Of a stretch of DNA of 33,128 bases, positions 8,911-14,426 are shown piece by piece (the stretch's first letter is position 1; each line of letters starts with the position of its first letter). The notes under the pieces are model-generated. The model was not told the DNA's origin, made no database searches, and saw only the letters and a list, made by a program, of their open reading frames with translations. Made by a program: the position numbers and the translations under genes. The stretch spans positions 1-33,128 of IMG/VR virus record IMGVR_UViG_3300035703_000293; one strand, written 5' to 3'. This stretch comes from a virus.

Positions 8911-8928
8911 GGGGCGTAATTGCGCCCC
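8911..8928 (+). terminator. Stem-loop between two cargo genes
   Basis: GGGGCG (8911-8916) and CGCCCC (8923-8928) form a GC-only 6-base stem with loop TAATTG, followed by GCTTTAAGG rather than a strong T run. It could be a weak terminator that lowers expression of the next gene, or an RNA-stabilising end for the upstream transcript. Confidence 0.45.
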
Positions 8929-8943
8929 GCTTTAAGGGATTGT

Positions 8944-11508
8944 ATGAAAAAATTTTTATTGATGGCTTGTGCAATCTTCACATCCGCATATGTGGAAGCC
9001 AGTGCCAGCAAAACTATTGATATTCCTGTCAGCATTCCAATCGTTGATGCCGTCCAGCATCAGCAGGATTTGTATTTTGCCAGCCACTCTGGCCTTCTTA
9101 AATTGTCCGATGGGAACTTGTTTAAATTAAAGGACTCTGGTGTTGACCTGGGACGCCTTCGGCAAGTCGAGCTGAATCATGATCATTCTAAAATTTATGC
9201 GGGCGGCTATGGTCTATGGCAACTCGCATTACCTGGTTATGAGTTAAAACAGCTTTACCCTGGTTGGGTGAGCCGTTTTGCCGTCTCAGATAAATACTAT
9301 TACATCGACACTGGCAGCGAATTACTTGGCGTGTCAAAGGATGCTTCGCAAGAGAAAATACAAATTTTCCCCTCATCTGTGCATGCCATTACTCAGGTTG
9401 ATGGTGAGGTTTTTGCGCTGACAAAAGACGGACTTTATAACCTGGTAAATACCGTCTCACGCTTGGTAAAACAGGGACAGTTTAAGCATTTATCAGCCAA
9501 TCCATTGTATATGGTGATGACTGATGCAGAAAATATTCATGTTTTTAGCCGTAGCACCAATCAGTGGTTTAGCTTTCCACTTCCAGAAAAGGTATCAAAA
9601 GTCGAACTAAGTTCGCAGGAAGATATCGTCTGGATCCGCAGCGATGGCGTATGGAAGAAGTTCAGTTTAATTAACTTTCAAGTGGTTGAGTCCATCGAAA
9701 AATCTGCAGCTTTCTTATTCGACAGTTCAGCAGGCCCAGTACTTTTCGATGGTACGACATTAACACTGAACAAAAAAGTTTCAATTTTTGATATCCAGTC
9801 AAAGCCGATGATTGCATCAGCTGCCATCGAACCTTTTATTCAACAAACACCGGCAGGTACATTTGCCAGTGGCGCAGGTGGCATTTATTCAATTGCTACC
9901 GGTCAGTTGGTCGTTAAAACTGATGAACACCTTATGGCGTTTGATACAAAAGATGGCAAAAATTTCACCCTTGGCACCAGTAACGGCGCAGTTTTACCCA
10001 GCGGTGAAGTGCTCAATCATGGTCTGGTTATTGATGTGGAAAGGCACAAGGATGAAACTTATATCGCATTTAAACATCAGTTGTTTAACCTTCATAGTGA
10101 CTATGCAGCCCCTGCTCCTTTAGAGCAAATCACTGATCAGGAAATTCTGAACTTAAAAAGTGACAATGGCACTCTGTATGTCCTGGCTGAAAACGATATT
10201 TTTACTCTTGATGACAAATTAACAAAAGTTGTCAGTTATCAAAACGCAGTATGGGTTGATGTTCACCAAGTAGGCTCACGTCTTTTTGCCCTAAGCTATG
10301 ACCATGGTATTTTTGAAATCAAACCAGATGGCCAGTTAATCAAGTTCACTTCAACCCAAGCGCTCCCTAATAGATTTTTTAGCCATAACAAATCAACCTA
10401 CGTGATTGGCCGTGAAGGTATTTGCCGGATAAATGTCGAAGACTTATCCTGCAAACAGATATCCGCTGGGATCACAGGTCGCTATATACAAGTTACAAGC
10501 AATGGGATTTACTACAGTAACCCTCATGGGGTCTGGATGTTGGATGAGCGCGCATTAGTCGCCAACCCCATACTGCAGTACGTGGTTCTAAACCAGCGTC
10601 CGCAGCTGGATAAAGAAATTAGCCTGACTGCAGGCGATGCATTAGGGCTGCACTTTGATTTGAAAGATGGCACTGTTCTTATCGACGGCAAAGAGCATTC
10701 AATTTACAACCATCAGGTTATCTTCACGCCTGAAAAAAGCATTCAGATTGATGGCTGGTATATTGATGTTCACCATAGAATCAGTCTGTGGTGGTTGCTA
10801 CTCATTCCGGTACTTGCGATCGCCAGCTGGTCCGTGTGGTCACTGGCCAGAGCAAAATCGGCAGCCAATGCAGAATTTGTCAGACTTTCACGTTTTCAAT
10901 TACATGCCGACGAAATAAGAAAGTCATGTGATCTATCCGTAGAAATCTCCGACAAGTTAAATAAGAACAACGATTTGGATTTAGCCGATGCCATTTATCT
11001 GTCCCATGAGTTACAAGAAATACTATCTCCCATCGCTATGAATGCCAGACTACGGGATTCCGATAACCTGTCTTTTGCTCTAAATAGTCATGTTGCTAGT
11101 ATTTTCAGTATCCATACTGAACTAGATGTCAGTATTGGCGAATGCGATAGAATTAATCCGAAGCTGAACGCGGATGCATACCATCTTCTAATCCATATGC
11201 TTAGATATGCAATAGACCGTTTCGGAGCAAAAAAGGTTGTAATCCATGTACTGCGTGAGTCTGAAAATGATTGCCTGCTCTGCGTTGAGCATGACGGCAA
11301 AACTGAAACCATGCTCCATCGCTTAATCAGTCGTTCAACAGATCACATGATCATGAAAGCTATTGCCAGGGAGTATGGCCAAAAACTGAAGTTTTTTAGT
11401 AGTGAGATAAATGTAATGCTCTCTCACAACCCACAAATCAAAGCTACACCGCAGCAAGCTTACTTTTTAGCGTCTGCATCAAAGTTTGGTTTGAAGCTTC
11501 AAAAATAG
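8944..11508 (+). CDS. Large membrane sensor-like protein: periplasmic propeller-like region, one span, degenerate kinase-like tail
   Basis: The 854-residue product starts at ATG 8944 (AAGGGA site) with a signal peptide (FLLMACAIFTSAYVEASA). Residues about 25-605 are beta-rich, with repeated short units such as DLYFASHSGLLKLS, KIYAGGYGLWQL and EVFALTKDGLYNL, which read like blades of the propellers in two-component regulators. One membrane span follows (about 615-637, LWWLLLIPVLAIASWSVWSL). The cytoplasmic tail has HELQEILSPIAMNARL, reminiscent of a HisKA_3 dimerisation helix, and a region around DAYHLLIHMLRYAIDRFGAKKVVI that resembles a histidine-kinase ATPase N-box without the usual asparagine; no DxGxG box is present. 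It is probably a signal-sensing protein that no longer binds ATP. No response regulator is nearby. Confidence 0.65.
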   Translation: MKKFLLMACAIFTSAYVEASASKTIDIPVSIPIVDAVQHQQDLYFASHSGLLKLSDGNLFKLKDSGVDLGRLRQVELNHDHSKIYAGGYGLWQLALPGYELKQLYPGWVSRFAVSDKYYYIDTGSELLGVSKDASQEKIQIFPSSVHAITQVDGEVFALTKDGLYNLVNTVSRLVKQGQFKHLSANPLYMVMTDAENIHVFSRSTNQWFSFPLPEKVSKVELSSQEDIVWIRSDGVWKKFSLINFQVVESIEKSAAFLFDSSAGPVLFDGTTLTLNKKVSIFDIQSKPMIASAAIEPFIQQTPAGTFASGAGGIYSIATGQLVVKTDEHLMAFDTKDGKNFTLGTSNGAVLPSGEVLNHGLVIDVERHKDETYIAFKHQLFNLHSDYAAPAPLEQITDQEILNLKSDNGTLYVLAENDIFTLDDKLTKVVSYQNAVWVDVHQVGSRLFALSYDHGIFEIKPDGQLIKFTSTQALPNRFFSHNKSTYVIGREGICRINVEDLSCKQISAGITGRYIQVTSNGIYYSNPHGVWMLDERALVANPILQYVVLNQRPQLDKEISLTAGDALGLHFDLKDGTVLIDGKEHSIYNHQVIFTPEKSIQIDGWYIDVHHRISLWWLLLIPVLAIASWSVWSLARAKSAANAEFVRLSRFQLHADEIRKSCDLSVEISDKLNKNNDLDLADAIYLSHELQEILSPIAMNARLRDSDNLSFALNSHVASIFSIHTELDVSIGECDRINPKLNADAYHLLIHMLRYAIDRFGAKKVVIHVLRESENDCLLCVEHDGKTETMLHRLISRSTDHMIMKAIAREYGQKLKFFSSEINVMLSHNPQIKATPQQAYFLASASKFGLKLQK

Positions 11509-11666: not shown

Positions 11667-12335
11667 ATGAAGAAAATTCTTTGCCTGGCATTAGCTATCG
11701 CCATATCGGGATGTACAACTGTTAGTCACAACGGAGCTGATACCGTGACTAAAGGTGTGGATTATCCAAAAATCGGAACCGAGATGACTGTATACGTTGG
11801 CGATCACATGGTTGAAAAAGGGTTAAGAGCTGAACAAAGCGTGCTCGTTATCCCAAACACTATTACTGGCTCAACCTATGATATTCCTGCTAGTACATAC
11901 CTACAGATAGGATCAGACAAATTACAAAACTTTTATTCAACAGTTAGTGTGGACCGTCATCACAGTGTGAAGCCTGCACTTTTGGCTGATAATGCTCAAG
12001 CAATATCTGTCAAAAAAGGTCTTGGTCAGGATGTTTGTATAATAACCGTTTATGGTGTGAGTTCTTGCTTTAAAGGTCAGTATGCGAGGAAGCGGCAGTT
12101 AGCGGAATCTGCAAATAGCTTCCAGCAAACTTTAATTTATAGTGGGCGGGTTGGCGATAAAATCAATATTGGATATCGCGAATTCAGAAATGACACAGCA
12201 AGGCCAGCATTCAACAATGATGTTGAGTACGATTTATCTACATCAAAAGTAATCGGCTACAAGGGGGCATTAATTGAAGTTATTAAAGCTGATAACAGCA
12301 GCATTACCTACAAATTGATTCGTAATTTCCCATAA
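11667..12335 (+). CDS. Lipoprotein of unknown function, 222 residues
   Basis: A lipoprotein signal is obvious: MKKILCLALAIAISGC with the lipobox ISGC giving an acylated Cys16. The residue after the cysteine is threonine, which favours outer-membrane sorting. The mature protein looks beta-rich (for example EMTVYVGDHMVEKGL, QSVLVIPNTITGSTYDIPA) with a pair of cysteines near residues 125-133 (VCIITVYGVSSCF) that may form a disulfide. GGAGAC precedes the ATG. The gene is AT-rich like the other cargo and ends in a strong hairpin. Surface-exclusion or envelope-modifying cargo of a prophage is plausible but unproven. Confidence 0.7.
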   Translation: MKKILCLALAIAISGCTTVSHNGADTVTKGVDYPKIGTEMTVYVGDHMVEKGLRAEQSVLVIPNTITGSTYDIPASTYLQIGSDKLQNFYSTVSVDRHHSVKPALLADNAQAISVKKGLGQDVCIITVYGVSSCFKGQYARKRQLAESANSFQQTLIYSGRVGDKINIGYREFRNDTARPAFNNDVEYDLSTSKVIGYKGALIEVIKADNSSITYKLIRNFP

Positions 12336-12556: not shown

Positions 12557-12578
12557 AAAAAAAACGGCTCAAAGAGCC
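12557..12578 (-). terminator. Leftward Rho-independent terminator
   Basis: Read on the minus strand, GGCTC-TTT-GAGCC forms a 5-base stem with a 3-base loop, followed one base later by eight T (complement of the A run 12557-12564). The T run is only on this strand, so it would stop leftward transcription. No leftward gene is visible to its right, so it may block read-through toward the cargo genes or the shape may be shared with the operator repeat that overlaps it. Confidence 0.45.
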
Positions 12579-12614
12579 TAAAACGAGTTGACATTAGGAT
12601 CAAAGAGCCTAAAA
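12569..12614. repeat. Pair of identical 15-base repeats at the anti-defence promoter
   Basis: TCAAAGAGCCTAAAA occurs at 12569-12583 and again at 12600-12614, 31 bases apart or about three helical turns. The first copy lies upstream of the -35 box and the second covers most of the -10 box. Such paired sites at a promoter are expected for an autoregulating repressor; the HTH protein at 13016-13432 is the natural candidate. Confidence 0.65.
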
Positions 12615-12615
12615 T
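12588..12615 (+). promoter_or_regulatory. Strong sigma70 promoter of the putative anti-defence operon
   Basis: TTGACA (12588-12593, perfect -35), a 16-base spacer and TAAAAT (12610-12615, 5 of 6 to the -10) make the best promoter in the window. Start should be near 12622, giving a leader of about 60 bases that can fold (GTGGC 12626-12630 with GCCAC 12640-12644) before the first gene at 12684. Confidence 0.75.
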
Positions 12616-12683
12616 GATTTCCACGGTGGCACACAGAAGGCCACTCGTCTTGAGGGGGCCATAGCTGCCACTTGGAGAACGAG

Positions 12684-12971
12684 ATGATACTTTCTGATGT
12701 TTGTTCCATTAAAACGCAGTTTAAAGATGCGGATTTTTGGACAGTACGCCGAGGCTCTTTAAAAACTGTTGGCATGGTGACCAGGGAATACAACCCTGAG
12801 CACATTGGGGTGAAGGTTCTGCGAACTGATATCCTGCTGCCGGATTACCTCTACTACTGCATGATGCATGTGCATAGTCAGAAAGTCTGGGAGCCACTGG
12901 CCAACGGTACGCTGAGTCTGGTGAACATCAAGGTGTCAGACGTTCGGAACATCCGACTGTCACCGAGGTAA
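12684..12971 (+). CDS. Miniature HsdS-like protein, 95 residues
   Basis: The gene starts at ATG 12684, six bases after a GGAG site; a TTG 12 bases earlier is inside that site and is rejected. The C-terminal half (LLPDYLYYCMMHVHSQKVW, then ANGTLSLVNIKVSDVRNIRL) has the wording of the target-recognition half-domains of type I restriction S subunits, where a YLYYYL helix precedes the aromatic/Gly-Thr turn and the final I-x-xL strand. The N-terminal ILSDVCSIKT also resembles the usual opening of such a domain. At 95 residues it is a single reduced unit, too small for a normal S subunit, and no HsdM or HsdR is present. It may compete for a restriction complex or bind DNA. First gene of the operon. 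Confidence 0.6.
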   Translation: MILSDVCSIKTQFKDADFWTVRRGSLKTVGMVTREYNPEHIGVKVLRTDILLPDYLYYCMMHVHSQKVWEPLANGTLSLVNIKVSDVRNIRLSPR

Positions 12972-12994
12972 GGTTGGGGCGAAAGCCCCAACCT
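12971..12994 (+). terminator. Strong stem-loop, probable attenuator inside the operon
   Basis: AGGTTGGGGC (12971-12980) pairs perfectly with GCCCCAACCT (12985-12994) around a GAAA tetraloop. The stem begins at the last base of the stop codon of the HsdS-like gene, and CTTTAACTC follows, so the T tract is poor. Partial termination here would make the first gene more abundant than the HTH gene starting 21 bases later. Confidence 0.65.
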
Positions 12995-13015: not shown

Positions 13016-13432
13016 ATGGACATTAAAATAGATTTACCTGGCATTGCAGATCAGCAGCGCTTTATTTATATCCAGAGCACTGAGGCTGCCATTGCCCAAC
13101 TGCAACAGAATTTACTGGCCCCTACCTTACCAGGGCAGACGGAAATAGATGAACGGGTATACAGCAATAAACATCTGCTAACCGAAGACCAGGGCTATGA
13201 GCCACCGCACCCGGATGTCGTTGGCGCTTATTTCCGGCATTTTCAAAAGCATTTTCCTGAATACGGCACGGATGCTAAGTTAGCCAAATTACTAGGCCTA
13301 TCAGGTGATCGGCGGGTACGGGCTTTTAAAGATGGTTCTAAAACTGTGCCGTATGGGGTTTGGCGTAAATTCTTAGTGATAACCGGGCGAGCGCCACAGG
13401 ACATCATCCACGTTTTTGGGTTTATGGGTTAA
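13016..13432 (+). CDS. HTH-type DNA-binding protein, candidate regulator of the anti-defence operon
   Basis: A 138-residue protein with an N-terminal helical part (about 1-40) and a C-terminal DNA-binding-like region at about 84-130: GTDAKLAKLLGLSGDRRVRAF, then KTVPYGVWRKFLVITGRAPQ. The LAKLLGLSG...VRAFKDG pattern is a lambda-repressor-like helix-turn-helix and the style is known to me from proteins on phages and conjugative elements. A GAGG site lies before the ATG. It lies second in an operon whose promoter has paired 15-base repeats, so it may play the Aca (anti-CRISPR-associated) role. The HTH is fairly clear; the regulatory role is inferred from context. Confidence 0.62.
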   Translation: MDIKIDLPGIADQQRFIYIQSTEAAIAQLQQNLLAPTLPGQTEIDERVYSNKHLLTEDQGYEPPHPDVVGAYFRHFQKHFPEYGTDAKLAKLLGLSGDRRVRAFKDGSKTVPYGVWRKFLVITGRAPQDIIHVFGFMG

Positions 13433-13496: not shown

Positions 13497-14426
13497 ATGT
13501 TGCGGCCAGATGAAATCTTAGTTAGCACTGAAGAGATGTACCCAGACGCTTGGAAATGGGTTGATAGGTTCATTCAGCCAAGACTACCGTATGAACTTGA
13601 ATGGCCATCATGGTGTTTTTTGCCAAATTTAGCTTGGAGCACAATAGTTACAGACGGTGGCACCAAAAGACCTCATGGCGATCACTTGGCGGATGTAGCT
13701 AAGATTGAATCATTAGGAACTTGGAGACTGAGCAAAAGCATTTATCAGTTCGCTCCATCAATTTATGCTGCCATTTGTAACACTGTATTGAATGATGATA
13801 TTCCAGCTGATGTTTTTTATAAGCTGCCGGAATGGTCTGTATACATCGAAACACCAGGTGGCAAATGGTACGAAACAGAAATGCATGGATTCTGGTGCCA
13901 CCTAGAATGGGAACTCACTGGAAGGAAAGAATTACGCTTGATGTTAAACACCAATGGCCAACTTATTCCAGTAGCGATCAAAATGGGTGAATGGCCATTA
14001 ATCGAGTCAATGAGTTGGGCTGCACGGAATGCCACAATGCAGGGGTATCGAGTCGGCCTAGCACCACCTATACCAGGGAACCTGGTAGAAAAAATGACTA
14101 AACAGCTTTATTCGATGGTTTCGCTAGTTCTTTATATTTGTTCCGACGGTTCGGAAATTGATGATCTGCATCAAGCGGGAAATGCACCAAAAAGGCTACG
14201 CCCAAATCAAACTGAAGATGGCTTTAAATTGTTTGTTGCTGAACAACCAACAATTTGGACTGTTGGGCAGCAGACCGCTGAAATATTACAACGCGAGCTA
14301 GATGGTGGGACAGTACTCCCTGCTCATTGGAGTGGATTTTGGGCTACGCAAGAGGGTGATAAGCGTAATTTTGTTTATAAATGGGTGCCGACAACTTTAA
14401 GCAAATTAAAAAAGGAAAGAATATGA
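13497..14426 (+). CDS. AcrVA2-family anti-CRISPR homologue
   Basis: The 309-residue protein starts at ATG 13497 (AAGGAA site); a TTG 24 bases upstream is less likely. From memory of Moraxella AcrVA2 (about 320 residues), several blocks line up in order: LGTWRLSKSIYQF at 73-85, DIPADVFYKLPEWSVYIE at 101-118, HGFWCHLEWE at 130-139, LVLYIC at 210-215, PTIWTVGQ at 251-258, and the end AHWSGFW with FVYKWVPTTL at 276-301. AcrVA2 lowers Cas12a by acting on its nascent mRNA at the ribosome. Here it is third in a four-gene operon with an HTH gene and overlaps the next gene by ATGA. No cas gene is in the window, so the actual target is unknown. Family membership rests on pattern matching, not on a search. 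Confidence 0.78.
   Translation: MLRPDEILVSTEEMYPDAWKWVDRFIQPRLPYELEWPSWCFLPNLAWSTIVTDGGTKRPHGDHLADVAKIESLGTWRLSKSIYQFAPSIYAAICNTVLNDDIPADVFYKLPEWSVYIETPGGKWYETEMHGFWCHLEWELTGRKELRLMLNTNGQLIPVAIKMGEWPLIESMSWAARNATMQGYRVGLAPPIPGNLVEKMTKQLYSMVSLVLYICSDGSEIDDLHQAGNAPKRLRPNQTEDGFKLFVAEQPTIWTVGQQTAEILQRELDGGTVLPAHWSGFWATQEGDKRNFVYKWVPTTLSKLKKERI

Follow-up and report, generated by a model that had tools for sequence, protein, structure and literature searches.

What function could a 95-residue protein resembling part of HsdS, the specificity subunit of type I restriction systems, have in a phage? The original prediction placed this protein in the open reading frame at 12684–12971 on the plus strand of the window (the whole 33,128-nt stretch of viral DNA analyzed here), coordinates that proved exact, and described it as a single HsdS-like unit without an HsdM partner. 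Judged by its genes, the window belongs to a transposable phage of siphovirus-like type. The minus strand encodes a transposase and a transposition protein, and the plus strand encodes a head protease, a major head protein, a tape measure protein, and a tail J-like protein. The gene, hereafter gene 1, is flanked by a lipoprotein-like open reading frame (11667–12335) and the head genes.

The lipoprotein-like gene just 5′ of gene 1 (plus strand, 222 aa) matches phrog_1353, a family of unknown function (E = 5e-65); it is present in the relative L001 and went undetected in L003. The 862-aa protein encoded at 8920–11508 (plus strand) seems to have a repeat-rich N terminus and a transmembrane segment, and its C-terminal part recalls sensor kinases. 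It has no coherent Pfam or PHROG match and is ∼68% conserved in two relatives. Downstream, the 309-aa product of 13497–14426 (plus strand) belongs to phrog_6160 (unknown function); in L001 and L003 this protein is either truncated or replaced. A search for an empty site, in related phages lacking the locus, returned only three already known relatives, all of which carry it.

Gene 1 is more than a chance open reading frame, since it has homologues at 49–98% identity in 268 of 72,556 plasmids and at >100 viral loci, and its dN/dS is well below 1 (for example, dN 0.19 and dS 1.23 between the window and L004). Searched as a single sequence, its product, which ends in ANGTLSLVNIKVSDVRNIRLSPR, gave a weak match to the PADLOC Specificity_I model (E = 0.0022) and none in Pfam, NCBIfam, or the PDB; a profile search against PDB sequences returned chance matches only. 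At the level of the family, 53 of 68 members match Specificity_I (best E 1.1e-5), and none matches the Pfam HsdS model PF01420 (Methylase_S) at E 0.1. An AlphaFold model built from the 68-homologue alignment reached a pLDDT of 91.8. Its top four Foldseek matches in the PDB were all target-recognition domain (TRD) proteins: 1ydx (HsdS), 8w0p (BsaXI S), 7eew (a Vibrio type I methyltransferase), and 7vs4 (PacII). The first three had a probability of 1.00, TMq values of 0.62–0.70, and E-values of 0.004–0.02. Both the claim of an HsdS-like recognition domain and the comparison with TRD folds by which it was to be judged are thereby borne out; the predicted fold is not an unrelated one. As modeled, the gene 1 product is a genuine HsdS TRD fold shortened to 95 aa, and we call it the mini-TRD. 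Relative to Methylase_S, it probably lacks ∼45 residues in its N-terminal half, because the Pfam alignment of gene 1 joined to the following gene places protein residues 35–112 on profile positions 80–146. Kinship with DUF6943 (PF22105) was considered and rejected; it matched 16 of the 68 members (best E 2e-4), gave no match in control genomes, and no literature mention of it was found.

The idea of a single unit did not hold up, as gene 1 has an obligate partner in the gene that follows it. Gene 2 (13016–13432, plus strand, 138 aa) is present at all 26 bacterial-genome loci that carry gene 1, and it also lies downstream of gene 1 in the window and in three phage relatives that are 92–95% identical. 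Plasmid records with gene 1 number 268 and those with gene 2 number 261, and the two sets have almost the same count in each genus. Essentially all stand-alone copies of gene 1 have a gene 2 partner. Four divergent large-phage copies (L082, L094, L100, and L101) are short open reading frames without gene 2. Distant stand-alone relatives of the mini-TRD, at 25–33% identity and apparently without gene 2, also occur on cyanobacterial plasmids of Anabaena (L154:4001–4240) and Planktothrix.

The AF2 model of gene 2 (pLDDT 93.3) shows a long N-terminal helix followed by a helix-turn-helix (HTH). The N terminus of the protein (IKIDLPGIADQQ...) aligns with the “PLPPLAEQ” junction found 3′ of the TRD in HsdS, and residues ∼1–41 align with the HsdS junction between TRD and conserved region and with the helix beyond it. 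When joined, the gene 1 and gene 2 profiles aligned colinearly with HsdS TRD-helix halves across the gene boundary, at a score of 60.8 and an E-value of 1.2e-8 that, as for all these hhalign profile–profile alignments, refers to a single comparison without database correction. The separate profiles scored 39.1 (gene 1) and 39.0 (gene 2). We regard it as highly probable that genes 1 and 2 together are a split half HsdS, encoded in an autoregulated operon. One concatenate of the two proteins reached 14.2 bits against PF01420, below the gathering score of 22.

The HTH of gene 2 (residues ∼66–122) is of the XRE/Aca-like kind. Its Foldseek neighbors were HipB, HigA, Aca10/Aca7/Aca2, and C.Kpn2I, all at E-values >0.1; the match to Aca10 had a probability of 0.97, a TMt of 0.79, an rmsd of 1.8, and an E-value of 0.39. 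Likeness to Aca-type HTH domains is common to many XRE regulators. Gene 2 had no Pfam match at E 1 and no NCBIfam match, the gene 2 family as a whole had no coherent Pfam match, and by sequence (Pfam, NCBIfam) it joins none of the known Aca families.

The two genes are separated by a GC-rich hairpin, GGTTGGGGC-GAAA-GCCCCAACC (12972–12993, plus strand). A strong hairpin occupies the same place in 24 of 24 loci inspected, with differing sequences. Because a stop codon, this hairpin, and a new start at variable spacing intervene, the two genes are translated separately, and a translational fusion or programmed frameshift is ruled out. In some plasmids, extra small open reading frames are inserted between genes 1 and 2 (L045:1985–2398 and L022:6330–6623), one of which resembles a membrane protein.

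Upstream of gene 1 lies a candidate sigma-70 promoter on the plus strand, with a −35 hexamer TTGACA (12588–12593), a 16-nt spacer, and a −10 hexamer TAAAAT (12610–12615). It matches 11 of 12 consensus positions and was the one promoter-like site found, in a scan that is no evidence by itself since shuffled sequences average 1.7 sites. Its position relative to the operator is conserved in homologues. This operator is a 17-bp palindrome, TAGGATCAAAGAGCCTA (12595–12611, plus strand), that sits between the two hexamers and whose edge overlaps the −10. A second, imperfect copy, ACGGCTCAAAGAGCCTA (12564–12580, plus strand), starts 31 bp farther upstream, and many homologues have such a copy 23–33 bp upstream. 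In general form the operator reads TAGG-xyz-NNN-z′y′x′-CCTA at a fixed position 5′ of gene 1, with a variable inner half-site (CGC, CGG, ATC, CTC, and others). Sites of this type are nearly exclusive to that position: in 464 kb of loci, 39 lay upstream of gene 1 and two elsewhere, and shuffled sequences of 20 loci contained none. In the pO157_Sal-type plasmids L022 and L029, a second intergenic operator-like palindrome, TAGGCGCTTTGAGCCTA, was found ∼1600 bp upstream of gene 1; a further gene in these plasmids may be under the same repressor.

The variable half-site offers a way to ask which protein reads the operator. Across both proteins, the column best associated with operator type was column 110 of the gene 2 alignment (z 7.9, with operator-type labels picked after inspection of the data). 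It corresponds to residue 103 of the window gene 2 (codon 13322–13324), within the predicted recognition helix (98–106). The relatedness of the sequences was addressed with phylogenetically independent contrasts, of which there were seven: residue 103 was A versus E/D/S in five and T versus E in one, and in the seventh the operators differed in one half-site only. Given this covariation of operator sequence with a recognition-helix residue across independent lineages, gene 2 very probably encodes an operator-binding autorepressor. The mini-TRD, considered as an alternative operator binder, was rejected in favor of gene 2 on the same grounds.

Beginning near the expected transcription start, a 48-nt structured leader RNA (12625–12672, plus strand) precedes gene 1. 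An outer stem, P1 (GGTGGCA...UGCCACU), encloses a hairpin, P2 (GGCCACUC...GAGGGGGCC). In P1 and P2, 99.3% of alignment cells are paired and five pairs show changes on both sides, a covariation exceeding that of 500 of 500 shuffles and of all slid controls. A covariance model of the leader had one match in the window (59.7 bits) and none in the large-phage loci tested, and three divergent members had no Rfam match at E ≤ 1. Used by itself, the leader sequence pattern retrieved 23 viral contigs, all 23 of which run into the expected gene 1 start within the DNA retrieved. An alternative fold, with a 5′ hairpin and a CUCG/CGAG pairing beside the start codon, is thermodynamically favored in several members and would put the ribosome-binding site inside a stem. 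These two folds suggest that the leader may work as a switch. The 5′ hairpin on its own showed no covariation support as a conserved structure; it possibly represents the alternative state in which the ribosome-binding site is occluded.

The distribution of the module is that of mobile elements, and gene 1 homologues are almost never chromosomal. Among Gammaproteobacteria genomes, 1 of 369 was positive, the seed itself, and all 11 positives among 5,426 E. coli genomes were plasmid-borne. A copy assigned to Capnocytophaga gingivalis (L045) lies alongside a RepA-like plasmid replication protein of enterobacterial type; it was set aside as a genuine host, being probably assembly contamination. 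A cultured-phage collection contained neither gene at meaningful similarity. In large phages, the mini-TRD occurs as a domain within proteins of 230 to >3,000 aa, together with ART-PolyVal, LPD22, GNAT, deaminase, or nucleotidyltransferase domains.

In the plasmid records inspected, the module genes are annotated simply as “hypothetical protein.” Defense-related neighbors were seen in only some of ten plasmid neighborhoods inspected: a Tn4401-bearing (KPC-type) Enterobacter plasmid has two “antirestriction” genes, and a Pseudomonas aeruginosa plasmid has AcrF3/AcrF. Other neighborhoods held backbone genes, including trfA/repA and virB. The claim that the HsdS-like unit has no HsdM partner stands. 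The N6 methylase profile PF02384 found nothing in the window record, four carrier plasmids, or eight large-phage records; full HsdS (PF01420) was likewise absent from the window record and from the four carrier plasmids tested; and no annotated neighbor in the inspected plasmids was a product named HsdR. In 12 of 21 carrier genomes, PF01420 detected no HsdS-type protein at all.

What, then, is the module for? The original prediction suggested either a decoy for the methylase–nuclease complex or a re-used DNA-binding module, and either may be right, although binding of the operator falls to gene 2 and not to the TRD. To the reading that it is a mobile, autoregulated, acr-aca-like counter-defense operon derived from a split half HsdS, we assign an even chance, and anti-restriction activity of the mini-TRD has a chance of even or slightly less. 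When the element enters a new cell, repressor would be absent and the strong promoter would fire, giving a zygotic burst in which the structured leader is translated and the mini-TRD is made. Above all, we infer the anti-restriction target: the mini-TRD would mimic the TRD docked onto the M subunit in type I-like (TRD-using) host enzymes and would block or poison assembly of the restricting complex. As gene 2 product builds up, its HTH would bind the palindrome between −35 and −10 and turn the operon off, much as Aca proteins do on anti-CRISPR operons. Its HsdS-like N terminus probably binds the mini-TRD, completing the TRD/helix interface, and this contact would couple repression to free mini-TRD.

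Precedents exist for parts of this scheme. TRDs make contact with the M subunit, and half S subunits are functional as dimers (PMC3874165, PMC2877798), so that a TRD mimic made on entry could be a competitor for M-subunit binding. AcrIF24 provides the precedent for an HTH second gene that represses through an inverted repeat (PMC9638941). Counter-defense is further favored by the acr-aca-like layout, by the occurrences in polyvalent proteins, and by the antirestriction and AcrF3/AcrF neighbors on plasmids. Several points weigh against it, among them the patchy occurrence of such neighbors and an HTH likeness to Aca that many XRE regulators share. As PF01420 detects no protein in 12 of 21 carriers, the target would have to be found in hosts that the element has left or has yet to enter, or be a different TRD enzyme. 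Gene 1 has no helical conserved region, which is found in gene 2 instead and is a main dimerization surface of HsdS. Finally, plasmid and large-phage mini-TRDs share about 50–60% identity, more than is usual for an inhibitor engaged in an arms race.

A rival explanation is purely regulatory: in it, the mini-TRD and gene 2 form one DNA-binding complex that sets the gene expression or copy number of the element, with the mini-TRD as co-repressor or anti-repressor and without any anti-defense role. Genes 1 and 2 adjoin each other as the TRD and its helix do in HsdS, the autogenous operator is placed for repression, and trfA/repA and virB backbone genes are neighbors of modules. However, operator sites are practically absent elsewhere, so that no regulon is visible beyond the operon apart from the additional site in pO157_Sal-type plasmids, and the large-phage proteins contain the mini-TRD domain without gene 2. 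We consider this explanation unlikely.

Alternatively, the two proteins might form a dimer resembling S that would bring in HsdM of the host and change where it methylates, shielding incoming DNA or altering host specificity. A half S subunit can indeed function with HsdM as a homodimer (EcoR124INT, PMC2877798; HsdS delta50, PMC3874165), and the module has kept the TRD as well as the helix. An accessory S subunit is nevertheless improbable given the shortening of the TRD by about 45 residues, a conservation across hosts that speaks against host-matched partners, and the 12 of 21 carrier genomes without a PF01420 protein. A toxin–antitoxin addiction module would equally be a small, autoregulated, plasmid-borne operon of two genes, with gene 2, whose HTH resembles HipB and HigA, as antitoxin-repressor and gene 1 as toxin; yet the TRD fold of gene 1 is not a known toxin fold, and in large phage proteins it is simply one domain fused to others, which leaves this reading very unlikely. 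A nonfunctional remnant of a decayed HsdS gene would explain the reduced size and an element without full HsdS or N6 methylase, but it is practically dismissed by purifying selection, by the conserved operator, leader, and intercistronic hairpin, and by obligate pairing over many genera.

Returning to the counter-defense operon, its fullest form would be a widespread, undescribed system in which a 95-residue S-subunit mimic acts against TRD-dependent restriction under a split-HsdS repressor, with threefold control by its operator, a switchable leader RNA, and the intercistronic hairpin, and with the same domain delivered in injected polyvalent proteins of large phages. We offer this form tentatively, as doubtful in its entirety. 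Ocr and ArdA are anti-restriction proteins that act as DNA mimics. If the module blunts restriction on entry, it would represent a new route across host barriers, in which part of the enemy enzyme takes the place of such a mimic. Its carriers include the KPC-type (Tn4401) Enterobacter plasmid and Pseudomonas aeruginosa plasmids. Whatever the target, this is a clean two-gene system that comes with a new structured leader RNA and with its operator already matched to a recognition-helix residue, and its regulation is therefore readily testable.

It is useful to compare the module with known systems. The TRD fold is known, and the module, under any name, was not found in the libraries and literature searched, the latter mostly outside subscription journals and preprints. 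It is acr-aca-like in layout and HsdS-derived, yet it falls short of HsdS membership. Like type I HsdS (PF01420 Methylase_S), it has the TRD fold, the C-terminal pattern, and a “PLPP-EQ” junction with a long helix directly following the TRD, here in gene 2. Unlike HsdS, which carries two full TRDs and two conserved helical regions per chain, it has one shortened TRD with the helix in a separate gene. It also adds an HTH, misses the PF01420 gathering score, and, in the window record and four carrier plasmids, is linked to neither an N6 methylase nor a second HsdS. Controller (C) proteins of restriction–modification systems, such as C.Kpn2I, use an XRE HTH to autoregulate a small operon tied to restriction biology, whereas the module has no restriction enzyme or methylase gene, a different gene order, and an accessory helix.

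The polyvalent proteins of phages and conjugative elements (Iyer et al. 2017) are alike in that large phage proteins combine the same mini-TRD domain with ART-PolyVal or LPD22, and unlike in that the window copy stands alone. The terms HsdS and TRD are absent from the main text of that paper, and the main texts of a jumbo-phage paper and a plasmid leading-region paper make no mention of HsdS. Finally, acr-aca operons such as acrIF23-acrIF24 have no sequence relationship to the module, for which no anti-CRISPR activity is known, and they have no counterpart of its TRD-like gene 1, its HsdS-like helix in gene 2, or its extra leader RNA. They share with it a small first gene, an HTH second gene, an inverted repeat in their own promoter, and carriage by both phages and plasmids. 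A repressor acting on that inverted repeat is likewise predicted for the module from the position, exclusivity, and covariation of its operator.
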